Below are positions 2,479-18,667 of a stretch of 64,000 bases of DNA, in pieces. The stretch is from Clostridiales bacterium (GTDB lineage Bacteria; Bacillota; Clostridia; Christensenellales; UBA1242). A program made the position numbers and the translations under genes. A model generated the notes under the pieces. It saw only the letters and a program-made list of their open reading frames with translations. It had not been told where the DNA came from and searched no databases. The stretch is taken from contig SVHM01000002.1 of NCBI GenBank assembly GCA_015055815.1, forward strand, positions 71,966 through 135,965. The letters are read 5' to 3'. The first letter of the stretch is position 1, and each line of letters opens with the position of its first letter.

Positions 2479-2537
2479 AATTTGTAGAAATTTGTATTAA
2501 ATTGAAAATACGTTATATCGAGAAATGGAGAAAACAA

Positions 2538-5500
2538 ATGGAAAGTAAAAAAATTAATTTAAACAAAATTTTTAATGTTTTAACTGTAATACTTGCAATT
2601 ATTGCTTTATCCACTATTGTGGGTGTTTGTCTTTTTGCACCAGTTGCAGTTGTTAGAGCAACTTCTAAATCTGAAATTTTAAAAGATAACATTAATTTTG
2701 TAACTGCTAAGACAAATTCTCAAGTTGCTACTGCTTATAGTTATGATTCTACTAAGAAGCAATATGTGTACACTTATAGCACAGACACTAAAAATTTGTA
2801 TTTTGGAGATGTTGGTGCTACTACATACGGAGATAATCAAGGAGCAACAATATTAGAAGAAGAAAATAATCCTTCTTTACTTTTGTCTCAACATGCAGAA
2901 GTTAATGCTGGTTCTTTTATTCCAACTAACACCACTCATTTTAAAAATGTTAATGGTCAATTTGAAGAGATTTTCTACTCAGATACAGTTGAAAATGGCT
3001 TTGTGTTATTGAACAACTATTCAGATACCCAATTTGCAACAAGCCAAACTAAAAATATAGAGAACTTCTATATTTCTTTCGGCTCTCCATATTCTCCAAA
3101 TGAAACTCATAATTACATACTTATTAATGGTGTAAAAGGTTTACTATACACAGATGAAAACAAAGACCCCTATACACTTAATCTTAATACACAACAAAAT
3201 GCATATATTCAAGGCACTGAAAAACAAATTTCATACTGGCATCAATATTTTGATTTGTCAAACATAACTACTGGAACATCTCAAAACCCAGTTGCTATCA
3301 CCAATCAAGAAGGTAGATATGAAATTGAATTTACATTCAAAAGATATGATAAAAATCAAAATATAATTGACGAAACTCCACTAACCTATAAATATGTATT
3401 CTATCTATTGGATAGCGCTAATTATGCAAAAACATTCCCTACAATTCAAAATACAATTCAAAATAAGATAGTTGCTAGTCCTAGCCAACCTATTGAGCGT
3501 TTCTCTCAAAAAGGTGTAAATGATGCTTATCTTGAATACGACCCCCTAAGATATAATATTGGATATTTAAGGTCAAACTTTGATATGCAAGAAAATATCT
3601 CAACTAAATTTTCTATCACTAAATATAAATTGGGAGAAAATGATAGTCATCCAATGGGTATCATATCTTTCAAGGATAGTGTTACAAACAAAGTTGTAAA
3701 GACTGTATATATCCTTACCTATAAAGTAAGTGTTAATGAATATAGATACTTGTACCTATCGAATGAAGGTGATAATGAACTAACACTAGTAACTGGTCAA
3801 GATTATTCTTATACTTATGAAGATATCAAAGATTGTATTATTAATGGCGATATCTCTTATGAATATGCAAGAGCAGAAAAAGTTGATGTTGATAATGACA
3901 CTAAAACAATTAATACTTATATCGTTAATAGTATTCCAAAATTAACTACCCCATTCACATTTACTTATGGCGAAAGTGATAAAGTATCCGACAACACAAC
4001 AACTATTGTTGATGCAAACCCATCAAATAGATATCAAGCTTCTTTAAAAGATAGAGACGGCGAATTAAAAGTGAATTATTCATATCGTCTACCACTTGAA
4101 GAACTTGGAGAATATTCATTCAATTATTCTTACAACCTTTACTACACTAACGGAAATGAATATTACTTAGTTAACGACGACACTTTGATACCAGAAAAAA
4201 TTACCGACTCATATAGCGCCCCAGCATCAGCAACTGCAGACGGCGAAGAAACTGAAGGAAGTGAAGGAGCTGAAGGTAGCGGTGAAGGAACTGGTGAAGG
4301 AACTGGTGAAGGAACTGGTGAAGGTGGTGAAGGAGCTGGTCAAGAAGGTGGCGGTGAAAATCAAGGTGGACAAGAGAGTACAGAACCAACAACTCCAGTA
4401 TACGATTTATACCTTACTTCTTGGAAAACTTTGGACGCAAACAATAGAGCTATAATTAATAATGTTGAATACACTTATTATCGTTCTGGAAATGAAGACC
4501 ATCTATATCATAGCAATGGCACCACTTCTGTAGACATAGTAATTTCAACATATAATGCAACTACTGGAGCAAATCCAACTTATCATATTGAGAAGACTGC
4601 AAAAGGCTCAACAATACTAAAAATTAAATATAAAGTTGGTACATACACAAAAACAACAACTGAAACTAAATATCACCTAGGCGGAGATATTAATAAGCCA
4701 TATTACACTAATATTGTAACAACTACTACCTACACTAAAATTACTTCATTACCTTTTAATACTCAATTTGCAGCTTTACAAAAAGTAATAAATACCCTTT
4801 GGCCATCAAATGCTACAACAACGACTATTACTACACTTGTAACTGAAGACCACAAAGCTTCACAAGATAGTGAAAAACTTCACGTGTTTGGTAGCATGCC
4901 ATACTTTAACAAAACAGATGAAACAACAGACAAAGGACTTGAAAAATTAGAAGAGTATAATAAATATCTAAATTACAACTACTCTGCTGATATTACAAGC
5001 ATGTTTGATTCAACAATTACTATAGAAAATGCACAAGCATTATTTGCTAGCCCTAACGCAAGCATCAAAATGTATACTAATAGTAATAAAGATGATGGCT
5101 CTAGAAAAATCATTAATACCAATGCAACACCAGTTTCTTGGGGCAATTTCTCAACTATCAATCCTGCAAATTCTAAAATTTATCACTTCCCTAATTACAC
5201 ATTTGATAGTAATGGTTTAATTACATTAGGTGAAAAAACAGCATCAAGCCCTACTACTTATACTGGTGATAAGTATATTGGAGAATCTGGACTTTATATT
5301 ATATTTGTTGAATACACTTATGATAGAATGCCTACTAGTGCTGGTAGCACTGCCACTACTTATACTCAAGTATTTACATTTGTAATAAGTAATATATCAC
5401 CTACTCTTAATATTTCTCATGATAAAAGTGAAACTACAACACCAGACTTCAAAACTCTAGATAAAAAGTATACAAATAAAGATGTTAGAATTTCTTGGGA

Positions 5501-8500
5501 TATGCCAAATATATTCCAATATGATGTATACATTAAACTTGAAATTTTAGATTTTTCTAATAAAAAATTGTGGAGTGGAGATATATTTAATAAAGATGTA
5601 ACTACTTCATCTTTACCAGCACATATAACAACCACAGTTGATAAAGAAAACAGCAAATATATTGTTGATATTGATAGCACAACTAATGCAAGTGGCAAAT
5701 ACTTTGTAACATTATGTTATGGTAAAAACAGTAATTCTTCTATTACAAAATCATTTATCTTGGATAATGAAGCTATATCAGGAATGAATATTTATGGCAT
5801 TACTGAAAACAACGAAACAGATAACGGCAAATACCGTGTCGATACCAGCCAAGCATTATCTCAAATTACTAATCAACCATTTACATTTAGATATAATAGA
5901 AAAAATAGTGAAGCACCAATTGAAACTTATGTTTATAAAGTGGAAATTTTAAATAATACTAGTAATAAACCTACTCTTATTAATTTAGACAATGGTAAAA
6001 AGGCTGTTACAAATACATACTATGTTTACGGCAACGACGCTAAAATTAATTTAGCACAATTCTATAACTACAATTATGAAATAAGTACAAATATAGACAG
6101 CAACTTCTTTATTCCTGATAATAGTTGTATTTATATTTTTGAATTATCAGACGTTGCAGGAAACACAGCAACATTCACTGTTTTATTTGATAAAACTACC
6201 CCATCATATTTGATTGAGTTAGAGCCAAAAAATAATATTAATAGAATTATTGATGGTGCTACTAAAGTTACATGGGGCGATTACAAAGCTATTTCAATTG
6301 TCAAAAATAGCGACGAAGCTAACAATACAAGATTAAACAAAGCATTAGATGAAATAAAAGAACTTTCTTCATCTGTGGAAATTCAAAATGATAATTTATT
6401 AATAAAAATATCTAATAAAAATGTTAAAAATAACGATATTGCCGGACTTGAATCTAGTGCAGTTGATGTAAACGAATATTATCTATTTACTAAAAATCCA
6501 GTAAATGGAAACGAAATTACTTTACCAGTATTTAATAATGGTGAAAGAAATGAACAAAAGTATAGTTTCACATCATCTCTAACACAACCAAAGGCAAACT
6601 TTGTAAAAGGTACCTGTTCACAAACTGTAAATGAAACTACTACTTGGGCAATTGAAGGTATGTATGGAGAAGGTTTCTACGCATTTACAATTGCGGACGC
6701 TCTTGGAAACTCTAGTTCAACACTTCTATGGATGAACATGGACAAAACCCAAACTATTGGTTATGGTACTTTTAGTAGTAACGACACTTCATTTGCAAAA
6801 GCCCTACCTTTATACAATCAAAGCCCAGACACTTATGCATTGAATGCTCTATATATGACATCTATCAAACCAAATGAAGTTGGTAGCGAAGGTCTTGATT
6901 ACACACTTTCTTACAACTATTACCCTATTAACTTAGATGTATATAGCAAAATTGTAGACATTGAATACAAAACTAATGGCAAAAAATCGTATTTCATATT
7001 TACTCTTAATGATGAAAGTACTATTGAATACTTAATTACTGACGAAGATGGTAACGAGTACCCTATCAACAGTTATCCATATGACTTAAAAGGCAACTTG
7101 ACAAGTGATGTGTATGGTTCAAACCCTACCTCATATGGTGAGAAATCTATACGTTCTCAATTAATTAATGGTACGTTAGAAGGTTCAAAATGGGTAACTC
7201 GTCAAGGTTTCTATATTTTCAAAAGAGAATATACTAATCTTGTAACCGATGCAGAAATCCAAACAGAAAAAGAGAAAGAAGAAAACTCAGGTAAAACAGA
7301 AGAAGAAATAAAAGCTGAATTAATTGCTGAATTACTTGGTGACGATACTAGAATTAAGTATTTGAGTTACTATGTGGATAGAACTGGTATTATTGATACT
7401 ACATCAGTCACTCATGCTGGTAAAGATATTAAATTTACACTTGGTGCTGAAATAAATGGTACTCCAGACAATGACTATATGGTAGAGTATGATTATTCAT
7501 ATATCGAAAGTAAATTCAAAGAAAGTATTGGACATACTCAAAGCAATCATGTGCGTGAAACAAATAAACTTTACACTACTAATAAAATGCTTGTAAACTT
7601 TAAAGTTTCAAATGATAAGTTTAATTATGATACTGATTTCTATGATTCGATGAGTGCTTCATTATTAGCAAAAGCAGACGCTAATAGTAAAACTTATTTA
7701 GAAAAGACCCTACTTAACAAAAAATACTTCAGTGACGGCAAGTACAAATTGGATTTAAAATTAGAACTAGGAAAAAATCCAAATTCTTCAAATACAGCAA
7801 TTGCAAATAGAGTAATTATAAATGAATTGTCTAGTGATAGTAATTTGAAAATATTTGAAAATTACACAGCTAATTTCTTTGCAAATAATGGATATAAACT
7901 TGATGACAAGACAAGGTCAAACAACTTCTACATGCATTTAGGTGACCAATCAAACAATTATTATGCAACTATTGCCGACCAAGGCACAATGTATGTATAT
8001 GAAAATAATCAACTTTTGGAAGTTCCTACATATGCAAACCAAGTATTAATGGAATTTCAAATTGTGCATACTCCACCACAAGGAGAATTCTATAGTAAAT
8101 ACTATGGCGGAAATGTAAATATCAATTATGATAAAAACCCTAACCAAGTAGGATCTTCAAGTTTGCCATTAACTACAATCACAGACCCTTCAACAGAAAA
8201 AAATGTACAAGTGTATAATTTACTAAAAGAATATATGCATCAATTGCAAAATATTTCAGATTCTACAACTGAGACAATGCAACAACTTGAAAATGGTGCT
8301 TTGATTACATTATCAAGCATAAATCATGAAACTTTAATATTTGCCTTTAAAGAAGAAACTTCTGAACAAAAAGCAAAAATAGATACTCAAAATATTCAAA
8401 TTTATGTTGGTGGTTATAACGAAAAAGAGAGTGACGTTATTACCAATCCATCAAGATTAATATTTAATAGAGTTAACGGAAGTTTCCCTGCTAATACAGC

Positions 8501-11500
8501 TGTTTCATTCTACGATTCAATTTATCCAGATTCAAAAGTTGAAAAAACTATATCTGGTACTACTATGGATAGCGCATTTATTACAAACGTAATGGATGAC
8601 GGAACAATTTATCATGCTATTATCGTTTATGATAACAACCTAGATAAAATTTATAGCGATACAGAAAAAGAGAATTATAATGGTTCAAATCTTAAATATA
8701 GATTATTAGAATCTGACGAAAACCTAGATAATATTAAGTATTATATTAAAATTAGATATTTGGGAGACGAAGACAATTATAAAGGCAAAACAAATAACGA
8801 TACAGAAAGTTATGCCGATATTAATTGTTATAGTTCAACTTATTGTGTAACTATTGATAGAACAAAACCTAATTATAATATTACTAAACTTATGGAGCTT
8901 GATAAATATTATAATTCAAAAGTTTCAACTCCAGTAGATGCAACTAATCACAATACGATTTTTGAAGAATATAAACCATATTATAATATCACTGATGAAA
9001 GTGAAAAAGGCACAGTTGATAGTTATCTTTCAAATTACTTCTTTGCGGTAGATAGTAGAGAGAATTCTTCATTTATATTTGAACAATCTGACAAATTTGA
9101 TAATAATGGTGCATTATATTTCAGAGAAATTAGTAAATCAAGCCTAGAATCTTATAGTCGTTCACTAACCCCTGATGATTATGAATCATATACCTTAAAA
9201 GGTCATTTACAATTCTCCCCTACTATGGTTGAAGAAATCAATACAGCATCATTCCAAAATGCAAAATTAAATATTGGCGTGAATGACGAAAACATTGATA
9301 GCGGTTATCCACAAAACCAATTTTACAAAATAGCATTTAGCCTTCCTGTAGATAATAACGGCAATACACTAGCCGACGACAAATGTCAAAATAAAAACTT
9401 AAGTTTATATAAATTAATAAATGCAGGAGTATTTAAAAAAGACCGTTATTACGAAATTATTGAAAGTGACGAAGCTGGAAACTACAGAGTATATGGAATA
9501 TATATTCAAGAGCCAAATCAAACTACAATACCCTTTGGTTATAATGCCACTGCAATTGATGCCGAAGGTGATACATTAACAAGTGTAATCAATACTGTAA
9601 ACATTGGTGGTACAGACCTTAACTTTAATGCAATACTTTCTAAAGATTATTATCAAAAAATCGTTATTGATATCAAATCAGAACGTTATAATTATGTAAT
9701 TTATGCTTCATATAACCCAGTACAACAACTTATTACTATTCAATATACTGGTAGTGAGAATCATACTGACACATTTAAAATTACATCAAACTCAACATTC
9801 GTAAATGATTTCAAAGAATTGTTGAACAAAGTCAATAGCATAATCAAAGACAAATCAAAAGAAATTAAAGATGCTGGTTATAGTAGATTTGGCCATTCCA
9901 TTACAATTACATTTATAGATAGAATTGGTCTTGAACCTTATACTAATGCACCAAAAGAAGACTTTAAAAACTTCACTGTTAACTTCTTGGTAGCAGGAGA
10001 TATTATTATTCCACAAACTTTCGACTCTTCTTATAAAGATAAATTTGGAATTAAAATCCCAGGCATTACGGAAACTGGCGAAAATACATATGTAATCGAT
10101 TTAAAGGTTGAAAAGTTCAATAAAGAATTTATAATTATGACACAAGATGATAATTCAATTAGTTTCCCTTCAACAGTTACTCAATTTAAAGCTGGTCCAT
10201 CATTCTACTTATCAAGCGGTGTTTGGAAACTAACGATAACAGACAACTTCAATAGAACAAATGTATACTATTTTGAGTTCTTAAATGGTGAAACACATGC
10301 TGGTGGTAGTTTAACATTCCAAAGTGGAAGTATTCAAGAAGATGGTAAATACATCACCGGTAATATAGCAAATTACACATACAGTCATAGTAGATATTCA
10401 GTTAAAGTTATATTCTATGGAAAATATTATGTATATGATGAAGAATCTGAAGAATATATCTTAGAAGATTGTACAGAAAATGGTAAAGAAATCACCAACA
10501 TTAATCAATCTAATTTATCTATTTACGGCATTAATGTTAATCAAGGAGATGTCAATACTACCCTTCAATTATCAGGAATTAATGGTCAACCATATTCAAG
10601 ATACGAAATTATCACAACACTTGCAAAAGATGAAGGAAATGTTGACGGTGCAATTGTTTATAAGAAAGATGTTACTATATACAAAGCAATTCAAACCCCT
10701 AGCCTTAAAAATATTAACGGTTCATTAATTGACTTGTCAGGCGATACTACAATTAACTTAACTGAAGATGTTTATATTATTTCTGATTGGGATGAAAATG
10801 AATACCCTATTACAGAAGGTTTCAAAACTTATGATTCAAAAATTGTACTTTCTAGAACATATTTTGAAAATGGTAAAAAGCTTACTAAAACATTAACAGT
10901 AACAGATAATTATAAGATTTCTGAACATGGAACATACACTGCTTATATTAAAAATGCATTAGGCGTAACAAGTAAATCAATTACATTTGTAAGAAGCAAA
11001 GATACTATCACTCTATATGCTGTTTATACTGTAGATAATATCTTGAATGAAGAAAAACAATTGAACGAGTCAAATTATATAACATTATCACAAAACAATG
11101 CAGAAATGACACCAAACATTTCTACTTATAACTACTTCGTTATTGACGATTTCTTCGGTTTCTACGACCCATCAACAGGTGTAAGATATAAAGTGTCTGA
11201 CATTAATGGTCTTATCAATGAAAATATTGACATTGATACAACAGCTTCTAGATATATTGATGTAAGAGTTAGTAGTAATATAAATGTATTCTCAAGATTA
11301 TTATTTGTTGAGACAGTTAGTGAATGGGGATACCCTATCGCTACTTTTGAAATTTATTCAAAAGGAATGAATAGTGACGGCGAAGAAACAATTATCGCAT
11401 ATAGATATATAAACATTCACTTCTTACCTAACAAAACTAAAGGGCTACAACTTGTTAATACTTCAGTTGTTGCAATGAATTCAAATGACACAACAAATCT

Positions 11501-12779
11501 TGCTGAAAATGTATTTAACATAACAAGAAACGATAGCGGACTAAAAGTTACATTCTCACCATATAAAATAGACAATAATCAAAAAGTATTACTTTGTCCA
11601 CAAGGAATAAATGTTTATATTGATAGATACTACAATCAAAAACTTGTTGAAACATTAGTATTCAACGCATCGCACTCTGGCGGAGACTTTGAAGATATTG
11701 TATTCAATATTACAACTGTCGGAATGCACACATTCAAAATTAGAGATATGGCTGGTAGATACCACAACTTCAAAGGCCCTATCGACCCAACTTCAAAAGA
11801 GAAAGAAAACACATATAGCGACACATTAAAAATACTTTTAATAAATCAAATATTGTATACTATAAACGGAGATACTCCGATAAACAATCAAATATTCAAT
11901 GATTCGGTAATATTAAAAGTTGAAAATAAACTTGATAATCAAACATTATATAAATCAAATGTTAGTTTTACAATCTACAAAGATGGTATCCAAATTACCC
12001 CACAAATTTCTGATAATACTATAGTATTTACAGACCATGGATACTATTCAGTTGAAATGATTGCAACAACTGACTTGTCATCATCAACGCAAATAATTAT
12101 AGATAAAGAAATTACCACCACTTATAGTTTCATTATCTTAAAAGAAAATATTGCAATGAAAAGTTTCGGAATTTCAAATGGTAATTTCTTCCTAGATTCT
12201 ATCGTTAAAATTTCTGAAGGATACTCTACACCACTTAACTACAGAAATCCAGATAGTCTAGTATATTTAACATATGAAAAAACAGAAAACACAAATATCC
12301 AAGATGGCGACAAAATTTATGGTAATGCAAAATATGAAATTACACTTAGATATTATGATGAAAACTTAAGAGCTTACCGTCCATTCACATTCAAAGTTTG
12401 GATAAGTGGAGATAAACCTAATATCATATCTAATATTATTGCAGGTTCTACAACTACTGACGATATAAAATTAACTTACAACCCAGGTTTAATTTATACA
12501 CAAGTTGGAAAATGCAGACTATTTATTAATGGTGAAGAATATTTAGTTATTGATGAAAATAGTGATATAATTCCAGCAACTATCACTTTATCAAAGAAAG
12601 GTGATTACACTATCGAACTTATAAGTGAAGATGGTAACACACTAATATCATCATACAAGTTTACAAAGAAAGACCCATTCAATTCTACAACAAAACTTAT
12701 ACTAATTTGTTCAGGTATTGGTGTGGTTGTTCTAGTTGCTATATTCTTCTTAATTAGAAGAAAAGGTAAATATAGATAA
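2538..12779 (+). CDS. giant cell-surface protein, signal peptide to C-terminal anchor, 3413 aa
   Basis: A hydrophobic signal or anchor segment (about residues 13-42, ending in VVRATS) is followed by a very long extracellular region and a C-terminal membrane helix (about 3385-3405) with a basic tail RRKGKYR. There is no LPxTG motif, so anchoring is probably by the helix. The ectodomain is Asn-, Thr-, Tyr- and Ser-rich. Recurring segments with DKTxP-like junctions (for example FDKTTPSY and IDRTKPNY) look like bacterial Ig-like/cadherin-like beta domains. A Gly/Glu-rich linker (about residues 570-615) contains iterated GEGT units encoded by 12-bp repeats at 4281-4320. The start at 2538 is chosen because GGAG lies seven bases upstream; a TTG at 2502 in the same frame has no such site. 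It is probably an adhesin or cell-envelope stalk; binding target unknown. No catalytic motif was recognised. Confidence 0.85.
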   Translation: MESKKINLNKIFNVLTVILAIIALSTIVGVCLFAPVAVVRATSKSEILKDNINFVTAKTNSQVATAYSYDSTKKQYVYTYSTDTKNLYFGDVGATTYGDNQGATILEEENNPSLLLSQHAEVNAGSFIPTNTTHFKNVNGQFEEIFYSDTVENGFVLLNNYSDTQFATSQTKNIENFYISFGSPYSPNETHNYILINGVKGLLYTDENKDPYTLNLNTQQNAYIQGTEKQISYWHQYFDLSNITTGTSQNPVAITNQEGRYEIEFTFKRYDKNQNIIDETPLTYKYVFYLLDSANYAKTFPTIQNTIQNKIVASPSQPIERFSQKGVNDAYLEYDPLRYNIGYLRSNFDMQENISTKFSITKYKLGENDSHPMGIISFKDSVTNKVVKTVYILTYKVSVNEYRYLYLSNEGDNELTLVTGQDYSYTYEDIKDCIINGDISYEYARAEKVDVDNDTKTINTYIVNSIPKLTTPFTFTYGESDKVSDNTTTIVDANPSNRYQASLKDRDGELKVNYSYRLPLEELGEYSFNYSYNLYYTNGNEYYLVNDDTLIPEKITDSYSAPASATADGEETEGSEGAEGSGEGTGEGTGEGTGEGGEGAGQEGGGENQGGQESTEPTTPVYDLYLTSWKTLDANNRAIINNVEYTYYRSGNEDHLYHSNGTTSVDIVISTYNATTGANPTYHIEKTAKGSTILKIKYKVGTYTKTTTETKYHLGGDINKPYYTNIVTTTTYTKITSLPFNTQFAALQKVINTLWPSNATTTTITTLVTEDHKASQDSEKLHVFGSMPYFNKTDETTDKGLEKLEEYNKYLNYNYSADITSMFDSTITIENAQALFASPNASIKMYTNSNKDDGSRKIINTNATPVSWGNFSTINPANSKIYHFPNYTFDSNGLITLGEKTASSPTTYTGDKYIGESGLYIIFVEYTYDRMPTSAGSTATTYTQVFTFVISNISPTLNISHDKSETTTPDFKTLDKKYTNKDVRISWDMPNIFQYDVYIKLEILDFSNKKLWSGDIFNKDVTTSSLPAHITTTVDKENSKYIVDIDSTTNASGKYFVTLCYGKNSNSSITKSFILDNEAISGMNIYGITENNETDNGKYRVDTSQALSQITNQPFTFRYNRKNSEAPIETYVYKVEILNNTSNKPTLINLDNGKKAVTNTYYVYGNDAKINLAQFYNYNYEISTNIDSNFFIPDNSCIYIFELSDVAGNTATFTVLFDKTTPSYLIELEPKNNINRIIDGATKVTWGDYKAISIVKNSDEANNTRLNKALDEIKELSSSVEIQNDNLLIKISNKNVKNNDIAGLESSAVDVNEYYLFTKNPVNGNEITLPVFNNGERNEQKYSFTSSLTQPKANFVKGTCSQTVNETTTWAIEGMYGEGFYAFTIADALGNSSSTLLWMNMDKTQTIGYGTFSSNDTSFAKALPLYNQSPDTYALNALYMTSIKPNEVGSEGLDYTLSYNYYPINLDVYSKIVDIEYKTNGKKSYFIFTLNDESTIEYLITDEDGNEYPINSYPYDLKGNLTSDVYGSNPTSYGEKSIRSQLINGTLEGSKWVTRQGFYIFKREYTNLVTDAEIQTEKEKEENSGKTEEEIKAELIAELLGDDTRIKYLSYYVDRTGIIDTTSVTHAGKDIKFTLGAEINGTPDNDYMVEYDYSYIESKFKESIGHTQSNHVRETNKLYTTNKMLVNFKVSNDKFNYDTDFYDSMSASLLAKADANSKTYLEKTLLNKKYFSDGKYKLDLKLELGKNPNSSNTAIANRVIINELSSDSNLKIFENYTANFFANNGYKLDDKTRSNNFYMHLGDQSNNYYATIADQGTMYVYENNQLLEVPTYANQVLMEFQIVHTPPQGEFYSKYYGGNVNINYDKNPNQVGSSSLPLTTITDPSTEKNVQVYNLLKEYMHQLQNISDSTTETMQQLENGALITLSSINHETLIFAFKEETSEQKAKIDTQNIQIYVGGYNEKESDVITNPSRLIFNRVNGSFPANTAVSFYDSIYPDSKVEKTISGTTMDSAFITNVMDDGTIYHAIIVYDNNLDKIYSDTEKENYNGSNLKYRLLESDENLDNIKYYIKIRYLGDEDNYKGKTNNDTESYADINCYSSTYCVTIDRTKPNYNITKLMELDKYYNSKVSTPVDATNHNTIFEEYKPYYNITDESEKGTVDSYLSNYFFAVDSRENSSFIFEQSDKFDNNGALYFREISKSSLESYSRSLTPDDYESYTLKGHLQFSPTMVEEINTASFQNAKLNIGVNDENIDSGYPQNQFYKIAFSLPVDNNGNTLADDKCQNKNLSLYKLINAGVFKKDRYYEIIESDEAGNYRVYGIYIQEPNQTTIPFGYNATAIDAEGDTLTSVINTVNIGGTDLNFNAILSKDYYQKIVIDIKSERYNYVIYASYNPVQQLITIQYTGSENHTDTFKITSNSTFVNDFKELLNKVNSIIKDKSKEIKDAGYSRFGHSITITFIDRIGLEPYTNAPKEDFKNFTVNFLVAGDIIIPQTFDSSYKDKFGIKIPGITETGENTYVIDLKVEKFNKEFIIMTQDDNSISFPSTVTQFKAGPSFYLSSGVWKLTITDNFNRTNVYYFEFLNGETHAGGSLTFQSGSIQEDGKYITGNIANYTYSHSRYSVKVIFYGKYYVYDEESEEYILEDCTENGKEITNINQSNLSIYGINVNQGDVNTTLQLSGINGQPYSRYEIITTLAKDEGNVDGAIVYKKDVTIYKAIQTPSLKNINGSLIDLSGDTTINLTEDVYIISDWDENEYPITEGFKTYDSKIVLSRTYFENGKKLTKTLTVTDNYKISEHGTYTAYIKNALGVTSKSITFVRSKDTITLYAVYTVDNILNEEKQLNESNYITLSQNNAEMTPNISTYNYFVIDDFFGFYDPSTGVRYKVSDINGLINENIDIDTTASRYIDVRVSSNINVFSRLLFVETVSEWGYPIATFEIYSKGMNSDGEETIIAYRYINIHFLPNKTKGLQLVNTSVVAMNSNDTTNLAENVFNITRNDSGLKVTFSPYKIDNNQKVLLCPQGINVYIDRYYNQKLVETLVFNASHSGGDFEDIVFNITTVGMHTFKIRDMAGRYHNFKGPIDPTSKEKENTYSDTLKILLINQILYTINGDTPINNQIFNDSVILKVENKLDNQTLYKSNVSFTIYKDGIQITPQISDNTIVFTDHGYYSVEMIATTDLSSSTQIIIDKEITTTYSFIILKENIAMKSFGISNGNFFLDSIVKISEGYSTPLNYRNPDSLVYLTYEKTENTNIQDGDKIYGNAKYEITLRYYDENLRAYRPFTFKVWISGDKPNIISNIIAGSTTTDDIKLTYNPGLIYTQVGKCRLFINGEEYLVIDENSDIIPATITLSKKGDYTIELISEDGNTLISSYKFTKKDPFNSTTKLILICSGIGVVVLVAIFFLIRRKGKYR
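4281..4340 (+). repeat. 12-bp tandem repeat encoding GEGT units
   Basis: GGTGAAGGAACT is repeated three times and then degenerates to shorter GGTGAAGG units inside the giant protein gene. It encodes a flexible acidic Gly/Glu linker. Such repeats can change copy number by slippage without shifting the frame, because the unit is a multiple of three. Confidence 0.85.
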
Positions 12780-16874: not shown

Positions 16875-16915
16875 AAAAAAAAGTGAGCATCTTGCCCACT
16901 TACTTTGGTGGAGAG
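16875..16915 (-). repeat. distal copy of tRNA-Ser 3' end plus terminator
   Basis: On the minus strand, CTCTCCACCA (complement of 16906-16915) is one base different from the tRNA-Ser acceptor end. It is followed by the same terminator found after the real tRNA (stem at 16882-16900) and a T tract. It marks the distal limit of the tRNA-Ser-linked cassette region. Confidence 0.8.
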
Positions 16916-17492
16916 TGTGTAACGTAAAACGAATTATAATAAATCATACCTATAAAGTCGTTGAATGTGCGGATTAAGATAAGTTTCTACGAAATCTACA
17001 AATGTCCATCCATACTTTTCATATAAGCCAATATGTGATGTATACAAGTATAAATGTGTTAAATTATTTTCTCTTGCTGTCTTAATTGCTTCATCCAAAA
17101 GTAATTTTGCAAATCCATTATTTCTATACTTTTCTTCAATATAAAGGTTAGCTATATAGGGATATATATCAGGTCTACAATCTAAGTCTTTTAGTGTAAT
17201 TTGACACATTCCTATCTCTTCATTATTTTCATTAAAAGCTATAATAGTTTGAGGCAATGTATTACTATTGAAAGATGCTTTCATATAAGTGGATACTTTT
17301 TCTTTTGTCCAACCTTCTGCATTTCCCCACCAATCATACATCCAAGATACGCATTTGTTTAAATTAATTTCATTATAATCAGTAATTTTTTTTACAATAA
17401 TTTTTTTCATATAAATATATTATCATATTAATTACAAAAAAACAATCCTAAACCAAACAAAAAGTTCGATTTAGGTTACGATTGGCGGAGAG
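16906..17492 (-). mobile_element. tRNA-Ser-linked gene unit 1 (GNAT cassette) with inverted-repeat ends
   Basis: The unit is bounded by GTAACGTAAAACGAA (16919-16933) and TTCGATTTAGGTTAC (17465-17479), inverted repeats matching at 13 of 15 bases. Outside each arm are three spacer bases and a copy of TGG(C/T)GGAGAG (16906-16915 and 17483-17492), the complement of the tRNA-Ser acceptor end. The stop codon of the enclosed gene directly abuts the left arm. Joining the ends would give two inverted arms around a 16-base core, the layout of a site-specific recombination site. No recombinase is present nearby, so mobility is inferred. Confidence 0.62.
16934..17410 (-). CDS. GNAT-family N-acetyltransferase
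   Basis: This 158-residue protein has the GNAT core: strands with IGMCQITLKDLD, then PYIANLYIEEKYRNNGFAKLLLDEAI, which contains the acetyl-CoA pyrophosphate-binding RxxGxA-like segment (RNNGFA), and a C-terminal THLYLYTSHIGLYEKYGWTFVD typical of the family. It probably transfers an acetyl group from acetyl-CoA to an amine; substrate unknown. Its TAA stop is immediately followed by the left inverted-repeat arm of the cassette, and a plausible promoter (TTGTTT and TAATAT on the minus strand) lies inside the cassette. GNAT genes are common cargo of mobile gene cassettes in other systems, which fits the context. Confidence 0.85.
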   Translation of the reverse strand: MKKIIVKKITDYNEINLNKCVSWMYDWWGNAEGWTKEKVSTYMKASFNSNTLPQTIIAFNENNEEIGMCQITLKDLDCRPDIYPYIANLYIEEKYRNNGFAKLLLDEAIKTARENNLTHLYLYTSHIGLYEKYGWTFVDFVETYLNPHIQRLYRYDLL

Positions 17493-17659
17493 TTAGGGAT
17501 CGGTGCAGTCACGAAGTGACAAATTAGCGAGCGAGTGCTTGCACTCATTAGCGAGCGTCACGTTCGAATCAAATTGCAACGCAATTGACGTGTATTTACA
17601 CGTCTTCTAACTCGACCACAAAAAAAGAACCAATTAATGGTTCTTTTTGTGGCGGAGAG
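17483..17659 (-). repeat. tRNA-Ser-type hairpin array between the two cassettes (array D)
   Basis: Reading the minus strand: tRNA-Ser acceptor-end copy (17650-17659), terminator (17620-17645), then hairpins and another acceptor-end copy (17483-17492). The hairpins are GACGTGTA-TT-TACACGTC (17587-17604), AATTGC-AAC-GCAATT (17572-17586), GAGTGC-TT-GCACTC (17533-17546) and GTCAC-GAA-GTGAC (17508-17520). TTAGCGAGCG occurs twice around the GAGTGC hairpin. The design is the same as in arrays A, B, C and E. Confidence 0.8.
17620..17645 (-). terminator. terminator within array D
   Basis: AGAACCA/TGGTTCT stem followed by T residues on the minus strand, downstream of a tRNA-Ser acceptor-end copy and of the zinc-ribbon gene. 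Confidence 0.75.
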
Positions 17660-17677
17660 TGTGTAACGTAAAACGAA

Positions 17678-18130
17678 TTACTGTTCTTTGCCACATTTGT
17701 TGCAAAACTTAGAGTCAGAATCAATTGATTCTCCGCAATGCTTACAAAAAACTTTATCTTCTAGACCTTTTTTAATAGCTTTTGTAGTCTTTGTAATTGC
17801 TTCACTTGTTATATCTGCGGTATTACTAGCGATTTCTTTTAAATCTTCTTTAGTTTCTTTTTGAATATACTTAGTTGTTTTAGCGTTAAATTTAGCAATT
17901 TCAGGTTTATATGCGGCGGATAGAATTAGTATTGTAAACACTAAGCAGCCAATTCCTCCAAAGATAAAAGAATTTTTTGTTGAATTGGCTTCATACCATC
18001 CTTCTTTACCTATTTCTGGAACTTTGGTACATATTCCAATTATAATTAAAATAATGCCGAGTCCAAGTAAGCAATATCCAATTATTTTTAAAATCTTAAA
18101 AATTCTTGGTTTCTCATTTTTAATATCCAT
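17678..18130 (-). CDS. small membrane protein with C-terminal zinc ribbon, 150 aa
   Basis: There are two hydrophobic segments (about residues 14-33 and 51-70) and a lysine-rich cytosolic stretch. The C-terminal FCKHCGESIDSDSKFCNKCG is a two-CxxC zinc ribbon. Proteins of this zinc-ribbon plus membrane design are widespread in Firmicutes without a firm function. The stop codon is fused to the left arm of cassette unit 2. A consensus promoter lies inside the unit, so the cassette carries a complete transcription unit. Codon use and AT content look like the surrounding genes. Confidence 0.7.
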   Translation of the reverse strand: MDIKNEKPRIFKILKIIGYCLLGLGIILIIIGICTKVPEIGKEGWYEANSTKNSFIFGGIGCLVFTILILSAAYKPEIAKFNAKTTKYIQKETKEDLKEIASNTADITSEAITKTTKAIKKGLEDKVFCKHCGESIDSDSKFCNKCGKEQ

Positions 18131-18159
18131 TTTTACCCTCTCAATTTTTACTTGACTTT

Positions 18160-18188
18160 ATTTTATCAGCGATATAAAATTTTGTCAA
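18160..18188 (-). promoter_or_regulatory. promoter of the zinc-ribbon cassette gene
   Basis: On the minus strand, TTGACA, a 17-bp spacer and TAAAAT, about 30 bp upstream of the start and inside the inverted-repeat boundaries. Confidence 0.75.
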
Positions 18189-18237
18189 ATAATTTAAAAA
18201 ATAAAAAAAATACTAAAAGTTCGATTTAGGTTACACT

Positions 18238-18288
18238 TGGCGGAGAGTTAGGGATTCGAACCCCAGGAAGCTCGCACTTCAACGGTTT
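18238..18288 (-). pseudogene. 3'-half copy of tRNA-Ser
   Basis: These 51 bases equal the 3' part of the intact tRNA-Ser (variable arm, T arm, acceptor 3' strand, CCA). The anticodon side is replaced by unrelated sequence beginning AACTCGAACCC. It cannot form a functional tRNA. The 3' end serves as the right boundary of cassette unit 2. From 18289 to 18401 I see AT-rich sequence and one hairpin, GACCGC-CTG-GCGGTC-like, near 18380-18394, and no gene. Confidence 0.85.
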
Positions 18289-18401: not shown

Positions 18402-18425
18402 AAAAAGTGAGCATCTTGCCCACTT
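18402..18425 (-). terminator. terminator of tRNA-Ser
   Basis: AGTGGGCA-AGA-TGCTCACT on the minus strand (one G:T pair), followed by five T residues. Confidence 0.8.
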
Positions 18426-18429
18426 ACTT

Positions 18430-18517
18430 TGGCGGAGAGTTAGGGATTCGAACCCCAGGAAGCTCGCACTTCAACGGTTTTCAAGACCGCCGCTTTCGAC
18501 CGCTCAGCCAACTCTCC
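18430..18517 (-). tRNA. tRNA-Ser (UGA)
   Basis: This is an 88-nt cloverleaf with a long variable arm and encoded CCA. The acceptor GGAGAGT pairs with ACTCTCC, the discriminator is G, the anticodon loop contains TGA within CGGTCTTGAAAACCG, and the T arm has GGTTCGAATCC. It is flanked by partial copies of itself on both sides (3' copies to the left, a 5' copy at 18614-18631). Confidence 0.95.
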
Positions 18518-18631
18518 ATATAATATTTAGTTTTAATAACGAGCGGTCGAACAAGTTCGTCCATAGCCCGTCAAGATAGTCCGTCATTGGCTAATGTCAT
18601 TTAGACATTACCTCCGCTCAGCCAACTCTCC
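18518..18631 (-). repeat. 5'-side tRNA-Ser duplication with hairpins
   Basis: The first 18 bases of tRNA-Ser (GGAGAGTTGGCTGAGCGG) occur again at 18614-18631. Between this fragment and the intact tRNA are the hairpins TAATGTC/GACATTA (near 18593-18611) and CGAAC-TT-GTTCG (near 18546-18557). GAGCGG of the fragment can pair with CCGCTC before the intact tRNA, closing a multibranched fold. The leader ATATTATAT just upstream of the tRNA is duplicated too. Confidence 0.75.
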
Positions 18632-18639
18632 ATATAATA

Positions 18640-18667
18640 TTTATATGTCATGTTTTTTGAAAGACAA
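18640..18667 (-). promoter_or_regulatory. probable original tRNA-Ser promoter
   Basis: On the minus strand, TTGTCT, a 16-bp spacer and TATAAA lie just before the duplicated 5' fragment. The intact tRNA has no equally good promoter directly upstream, so transcription may start here and run through the hairpin insert. Confidence 0.55.

Follow-up and report, generated by a model that had tools for sequence, protein, structure and literature searches.

Which process placed two unrelated single genes, each between the same pair of short inverted arms, beside a tRNA-Ser gene of a Clostridiales bacterium? The window, i.e. the whole stretch of 64,000 nucleotides analyzed here (64 kb), holds an array which reads on the minus strand, starting from the tRNA, as terminator, tRNA 3'-half copy, cassette 1, short insert, cassette 2 and terminator copy. 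Its features are:

18430..18517, minus strand: intact tRNA-Ser(tga) that anchors the array (ARAGORN)
18405..18425, minus strand: hairpin terminator directly 3' of the tRNA-Ser
18237..18288, minus strand: 52-nt copy of the tRNA-Ser 3' half (D3), 100% identical to 18429-18480, abutting cassette 1
18238..18247, minus strand: left core of cassette 1, CTCTCCGCCA
18220..18234, minus strand: left (P') arm of cassette 1, GTAACCTAAATCGAA, the outer part of which is GTTCGATTT on the opposite strand
18160..18188, minus strand: promoter-like TTGACA-17-TAAAAT of cassette 1, named by consensus match alone (11/12)
17678..18130, minus strand: cassette 1 gene, encoding a 150-aa protein with hydrophobic segments and a C-terminal zinc ribbon (Pfam, PF13240)
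17663..17677, minus strand: right (P) arm of cassette 1, TTCGTTTTACGTTAC, touching the stop codon
17650..17659, minus strand: right core of cassette 1, CTCTCCGCCA, followed by the terminator-like hairpin AAAGAACCATTAATTGGTTCTTT
17483..17492, minus strand: left core of cassette 2, CTCTCCGCCA, with 18 nt of the tRNA 3' end
17465..17479, minus strand: left (P') arm of cassette 2, GTAACCTAAATCGAA
17447..17475, minus strand: intrinsic terminator of the cassette 2 left arm (CCTAAATCGAAC...GTTTGGTTTAGG and a T run)
16934..17410, minus strand: cassette 2 gene, encoding a 158-aa GNAT acetyltransferase (Pfam, PF00583)
16919..16933, minus strand: right (P) arm of cassette 2, TTCGTTTTACGTTAC, touching the stop codon
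16906..16915, minus strand: right core of cassette 2, CTCTCCACCA, followed by the tRNA-Ser terminator copy (16881-16901)

Within the 64-kb window, the right-arm 15-mer GTAACGTAAAACGAA occurs exactly at 16919-16933 and 17663-17677, the left-arm 15-mer TTCGATTTAGGTTAC at 17465-17479 and 18220-18234. The two are complementary at 13 of 15 positions. No further exact arm copies were found in the window or in the 1.3-Mb genome, where the four 15-mers of the arm family all lie at this locus. A 10-bp core starts exactly three bases beyond each arm. On the plus strand it reads TGGCGGAGAG at 17483-17492, 17650-17659 and 18238-18247, and TGGTGGAGAG, with one mismatch, at 16906-16915; the right core of cassette 2 is thus one base off the tRNA sequence, which counts against the model proposed below. 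The 3-nt spacers between arm and core differ between the ends (AGT or ATC on the left, ACA on the right). Both stop codons lie 0 nt from the arm, and the arm-to-arm lengths are 572 and 561 bp. Common to both cassettes are the ends alone (51 nt, 88%, and 38 nt, 89%), while the interiors are unrelated; therefore, the cassettes are not duplicates of one unit. The 15-mer arm pair by itself is not rare in 64 kb, and window scans allowing three mismatches returned about as many matches as expected by chance, so that the claim of cassettes rests on the exact ends, the spacing and the recurrence. The sequence-only reading, which had described two arm-bounded unrelated genes, a three-base spacing to copies of the tRNA-Ser acceptor end and abutting stop codons, was accurate in these respects.

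It had also anchored the units at the tRNA gene. The array does lie at tRNA-Ser; cassette 1, however, abuts the identical 52-nt 3'-half copy and not the intact tRNA. This copy looks like the footprint of a tRNA-integrating element, probably of the tyrosine-integrase type. A similar extended tRNA-Ser copy is present in the same genome beside a tyrosine integrase: contig C9 (G000:C9, L032:1-3724) encodes a 293-aa integrase (L032:2843-3724), and its end consists of an extended tRNA-Ser 3'-half copy followed by the left arm TTAACCTAAATCGAT. The short insert between the cassettes comprises a terminator-like hairpin and an 18-nt tRNA 3' fragment. The hairpin, AAAGAACCATTAATTGGTTCTTT, resembles the native tRNA-Ser flank of the congener G094. 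Beyond the right core of the GNAT cassette, the tRNA-Ser terminator recurs as a near-identical copy at 16881-16901 (direct repeat D4, 42 nt, 95%). The 5' end of the tRNA-Ser is repeated as well. Positions 18500-18529, comprising this end and upstream sequence, are identical to 18614-18643, a 30-nt copy that lies ~114 bp away from the start of the tRNA. Taken with the 3'-half copy (18237-18288), this copy suggests that the tRNA-Ser was replaced or duplicated repeatedly. The congener G051 carries a similar 5' fragment upstream of its tRNA-Ser.

The ends were surveyed in 297 genomes of the same bacterial family, which are draft assemblies and at least partly metagenome-derived. The left-end signature, tRNA CCA-N3-NNAACCTAAATCGA, yielded 53 matches versus 3 for reversed controls, and occurs after tRNA-Ser, Trp, Ala, Gln, Met, Tyr, Leu and Ile. 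Right ends were gathered in the same genomes with the pattern TTCGNTTTANGTTAC-N10-CCA. Altogether, 35 distinct left ends are anchored at annotated tRNAs of 13 species, inserted at the same tRNA nucleotide and in a single orientation. At a tRNA-Trp (L009) and a tRNA-Ser(gct) (L014), GTAACCTAAATCGAA itself stands exactly three bases past the tRNA CCA. The search for arms in relatives, proposed in the earlier reading, thus located them next to tRNA genes in many genera. An array at the tRNA-Gln(ctg) of G051, which belongs to the same genus, opens with a large serine recombinase (LSR) element; behind it come units with a GNAT gene, a 169-aa ORF and a 77-aa ORF, and a CAGCCA core stands before each unit. 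The right arm ATCGTTTTACGTTTG is common to the LSR element and the last unit of this array, the 77-aa-ORF cassette. The orthologous tRNA-Ser site of G051 (L119:6000-9127) holds other units, including another putative acetyltransferase, which are divided by repeated tRNA 3' ends and terminators. In G168, a 1-kb unit (L112:2049-3093) has perfectly inverted ends around a palindromic GGTGCACC core and encodes a 179-aa ORF without a Pfam match; a similar core is found at the LSRs of L186 and L187.

Larger elements with the same ends comprise 4-12 kb and encode a large serine recombinase besides restriction-modification cargo. The window cassettes themselves carry no LSR. Complete two-ended LSR elements are L107, L108, L111, L122 and L030, in which the LSR reads back towards the tRNA. 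The domains PF00239, PF07508 and PF13408 (Resolvase, Recombinase, Zn-ribbon) scored above cut-off in the LSRs tested, L118 and L145. The cargo includes restriction-modification genes of type III (L107), type II-like (L111) and type IIG-like (L122), a DUF4379/helicase-associated protein (L108), and a PADLOC candidate defense protein with a Rep-like protein (L118). An LSR-less unit of 3.3 kb encodes a cytosine methylase and an HNH enzyme (L120). Smaller units with a single ORF are the two of the window, L127, L174 and L112. The Rep-like gene of L118 (L118:5042-5938, PF23343 REP_ORF2-G2P) adjoins the LSR, and a similar ORF is present in L030 (about 9110-10057). Such genes suggest rolling-circle replication or mobilization of LSR elements.

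A control started from the LSR genes. Homologues of the G051 LSR were collected and their stop-side flanks fetched where not already seen; the control is therefore less selected on arms, if not wholly free of arm selection. A tRNA lies within 1.6 kb on the stop side in 18 of 25 clade LSRs (15 fetched for the LSR alone), always antiparallel and never parallel. An antiparallel tRNA or an arm was present in 11 flanks fetched solely for the LSR, and several other clade LSRs have an arm at a tRNA-like core. Outside this bacterial family, the clade is almost absent: matches were obtained in only three other genomes, ~42% identical (398 phylum genomes, E<=1e-90), and phage matches reached at most 42% identity. 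The window's own genome has one full-length clade LSR, on contig C15 (G000:C15), the sole one recognized there. It is 52% identical to the query and adjoins a different arm type, which counts against it as the helper of the cassettes. In a sister LSR group, 7 of 20 members are located at a tRNA; their arm is related to that of the clade yet distinct (commonly AATCCGAAC). A second LSR group (L209, L212-L214, L216, L219 and L220) is situated directly beside tRNA genes; its arm, commonly GAGCAATCCGAAC, is different, is also terminator-forming, and has a motif offset of 4 bp in place of 5.

Joined, P and P' give an inverted-repeat site of 46 bp (15+16+15) with its center between tRNA nt 71|72. Symmetric half-sites flank the central dinucleotide, as in an attP-like site of ~50 bp. 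In the complete LSR elements inspected, nt 71-76 are common to both ends, and divergence can begin directly inward of them (L108, L111); the minimal identity is 6 bp, CAACCA in L108 and CCGCCA in L111. Such a short shared stretch with immediate divergence is expected for a 2-bp crossover. The central dinucleotides of the left ends are CC (26), CA (5) and CT (4). The outer motif of P', GTTCGATTT, occupies positions 24-16, the tRNA T-loop GTTCRANNC positions 19-11. In offset scans, arm and tRNA matched best at 5 bp, both for P' (+5.7 bits; next best -0.05) and for P (+2.9; next best +1.8). For the LI integrase, the zinc-domain motif spans 16-24 in attP, whereas in attB it is shifted by 5 bp towards the center (Rutherford et al., PMC3783163). 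The mechanistic case rests mainly on an offset equal to this published LSR rule within an LSR-carrying family; since the tRNA geometry is fixed, this amounts to a single structural coincidence and not to 35 independent ones. The arm motif of the sister LSR group is 4 bp, not 5, from the T-loop position if its center is identical. The right half of attB has no clear conserved motif, and covariation between T-loop residue 57 and the arm is present in some pairs but inconsistent. No intact attP, i.e. a circle junction, was found in the 297 family genomes or in IMG/VR. Like the 4-bp offset of the sister group and the right half of attB, this counts against the model proposed below.

The left arm doubles as a terminator, a feature missed in the sequence-only reading. 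It forms the 5' strand of a hairpin in 33 of 35 left ends and in all 11 left ends of the LSR-first control, with a mean z of ~ -4.4 to -5 versus dinucleotide shuffles and usually with a T run behind. Where arms diverge, the partner strand changes along, e.g. AAGTCTAAATCG/TTTAGACTT and AGCGTAAATCTA/TAGATTTGCGT. Presumably, an inserted element supplies the tRNA with a new terminator that replaces its own. The arm motif is not merely a terminator, since it is also present in the right arm, where no hairpin forms.

The GNAT cassette has a second copy in G094 (Clostridiales bacterium SIG395, SVHX01000017.1), identical at 293 of 299 DNA positions (98%). This copy is located at another locus with another core, the identity ends inside the core, its 5' part is truncated, and no tRNA gene lies near its core. 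A neighboring MscS protein is 69% identical between the same two genomes. On the level of DNA identity, these values demonstrate a recent transfer of the GNAT cassette between species. Both cassettes are absent from the orthologous tRNA-Ser sites of the congeners G094, G073 and G051; the comparison of presence and absence, suggested beforehand, thus yielded sites without either unit in three congeners. Homologues of the GNAT and zinc-ribbon genes in other genera (<=54% identity) had no cassette ends where checked and are ordinary chromosomal genes. By this comparison, the cassette genes look captured from ordinary chromosomal families. Viral contigs contained no cassette homologues.

With the same ends at tRNA genes of many genera and the GNAT copy elsewhere, the earlier view of single-gene, arm-bounded, tRNA-anchored mobile cassettes has held. 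The two units are quite probably non-autonomous integrative cassettes of an LSR element family that targets tRNA 3' ends, mobilized in trans. A cassette would consist of a P' half-site doubling as terminator, one gene with a promoter-like sequence, and a stop codon placed on the P half-site. Excision would create a circle with a 46-bp attP, composed of the P arm TTCGTTTTACGTTAC, a 16-bp core spacer and the P' arm GTAACCTAAATCGAA. With an LSR provided in trans, the attP of an LSR-less cassette would recombine with attB, which is the 3' end of the tRNA gene; the crossover would take place at the central dinucleotide CC (nt 71-72). The sequence restoring the CCA end would lie in the right half of attP, and the P' arm would fold into the terminator replacing that of the tRNA. 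The zinc domain of the LSR may read GTTCGA, at positions 24-16 from the center in attP and 5 bp nearer in attB, at the T-loop GTTCRANNC. Every tRNA gene has a T-loop, so that one LSR family could serve many tRNA isotypes. Repeated insertions would stack single genes into an array, and capture would be the putative route by which genes enter cassettes.

The attachment layout of a tyrosine recombinase, which the sequence-only reading had recognized in the arrangement of arm, core and arm, was not supported. Mobilization by such an enzyme, an integrase or Xer, at the tRNA 3' end is unlikely. In its favor, tyrosine integrases classically target tRNA 3' ends, cassette 1 is preceded by the 52-nt tRNA copy, and the C9 integrase adjoins both an extended tRNA-Ser copy and a left arm. 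However, the complete elements that share the arms encode an LSR beside the left end, and no homologue of either tyrosine recombinase of the window's genome, that of C9 included, lies between their ends. The symmetry of 15-16-15 with a 5-bp offset fits LSR sites, and an identity between ends as small as in L108 and L111 further disfavors the tyrosine layout. A search for a tyrosine recombinase co-occurring with the arms had been proposed; the genome has two, and neither lies inside an arm-bounded unit, one being that of C9, the other a chromosomal, XerS-like enzyme adjoining lexA-mutL-mutS genes. The recombinase of the cassettes is probably not a tyrosine recombinase. Tyrosine integrases probably explain the extended tRNA 3'-half copies at tRNA-Ser, not the arms, and elements of the tyrosine and the LSR type appear to stack at this gene.

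An origin without mobility, by segmental duplication of one ancestral unit or from static tRNA terminators of chance similarity, is very unlikely. Duplicated tRNA-Ser fragments and terminators around the locus would agree with it, and so would the hairpins formed by nearly all left arms. It is already contradicted by the family-wide end matches and the G094 GNAT copy, found in another species. Ends in common around unrelated genes and interiors and a right arm with the same motif and no terminator speak against it, and duplication, named in the sequence-only reading as the failure of its cassette idea, was not borne out. Still less probable is a transposon-like element with terminal inverted repeats, a target duplication (the core) and a DDE transposase. 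The imperfect 15-bp inverted repeats and short direct repeats resemble those of transposons, but the arm-core spacers differ by end, insertion occurs at a fixed tRNA nucleotide in one orientation, and no transposase gene was recognized among the annotated genes of complete elements. A classical or degenerate integron cassette array would likewise present single genes in one orientation with stop codons near a repeated recombination site; it is the most remote of these readings. Both tyrosine recombinases scored 64.9 and 62 bits versus the integron-integrase cut-off of 265, hence no IntI by profile score, and inspection of the locus revealed no attC layout of R/L-box hairpins. Moreover, the arms are constant, the spacer is the 16-bp tRNA end, and the cassettes carry promoter-like sequences and terminators. 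The distinction from classical integrons made at the outset is thereby upheld.

Among known systems, the cassettes are grouped with LSR integrative elements rather than with integrons or tyrosine-integrase islands. With the serine integrases phiC31, Bxb1 and A118/LI, the family shares the Resolvase, Recombinase and zinc-ribbon domains, an inverted-repeat attP-like site of ~50 bp, a non-palindromic central dinucleotide and an outer motif 5 bp nearer the center in attB (PMC3783163). It differs in its targets, tRNA 3' ends with restoration of the tRNA, and in an attB motif that falls on the universal T-loop. For mycobacteriophages with serine integrases, integration into tRNA genes is stated not to occur (PMC9262239), and the streptococcal serine-integrase elements mostly insert inside protein genes (PMC4701971, PMC5357655). 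One LSR clade with many different target genes is also known from the multi-targeting LSRs (Durrant et al., 2022, PMC10083194); their target motifs are not described there as tRNA, whereas T-loop and acceptor end are used here. Tyrosine-integrase islands and IMEs, among them the Streptococcus family Tyr_8, which targets four tRNAs (PMC5357655), likewise use the tRNA 3' end, restore the tRNA and accrete in several elements. The cassettes differ from them by another recombinase class, a very short common core, constant arms and single-gene non-autonomous units. For SCC elements, composite arrays and recombinase-less cargo elements exist. SCC/SCCmec and the Enterococcus cassette chromosome resemble the present family as LSR-driven elements at a fixed chromosomal 3' end (PMC6222049). 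SCC is defined by ccr genes (CcrAB or CcrC) and by its site, the 3' end of the protein gene rlmH; the site here is tRNA 3' ends, and by site the cassettes do not belong to SCC. SCC has no single-gene units of ~570 bp, nor the many tRNA isotypes and the terminator arm of the present family. Integron cassettes share the single genes in one orientation, the stop near the site, the serial insertion and a recombinase acting in trans, whereas IntI and attC are replaced here by an arm-core-arm site, insertion at tRNA, and cassettes with promoter-like sequences and terminators of their own.

To our knowledge, the tRNA T-loop is not normally reported as an LSR target, and no description of LSR cassettes at tRNA ends was found in the open-access literature searched. 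Whether the family constitutes a serine-recombinase counterpart of integrons is evenly balanced; its LSRs would read the T-loop and use any tRNA as platform, trans-mobilize single-gene cassettes and employ a half-site as tRNA terminator. If this is true, evolution has led serine integrases to exploit tRNA genes collectively through T-loop matching, a solution so far associated with tyrosine integrases. The motif GTTCRANNC at 11-19 bp and the dinucleotide of nt 71-72 would give a testable account of multi-target specificity. Minimal cassettes could move single genes between species and recur at the tRNAs of a large family of small-genome bacteria, while the larger relatives of these cassettes carry restriction-modification and other defense genes. 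tRNA-directed LSRs could also serve as integration tools with a predictable, universal landing site.

Two other features of the window concern its first part. Positions 2502-12779 encode a predicted surface protein of 3425 aa with an N-terminal signal-like segment and a C-terminal membrane anchor. At 1477-1990, two overlapping ORFs repeat one segment (MLFLLAWDLQDFILLI...), which represents a tandem DNA repeat of ~205 bp adjoining a tRNA-Met.
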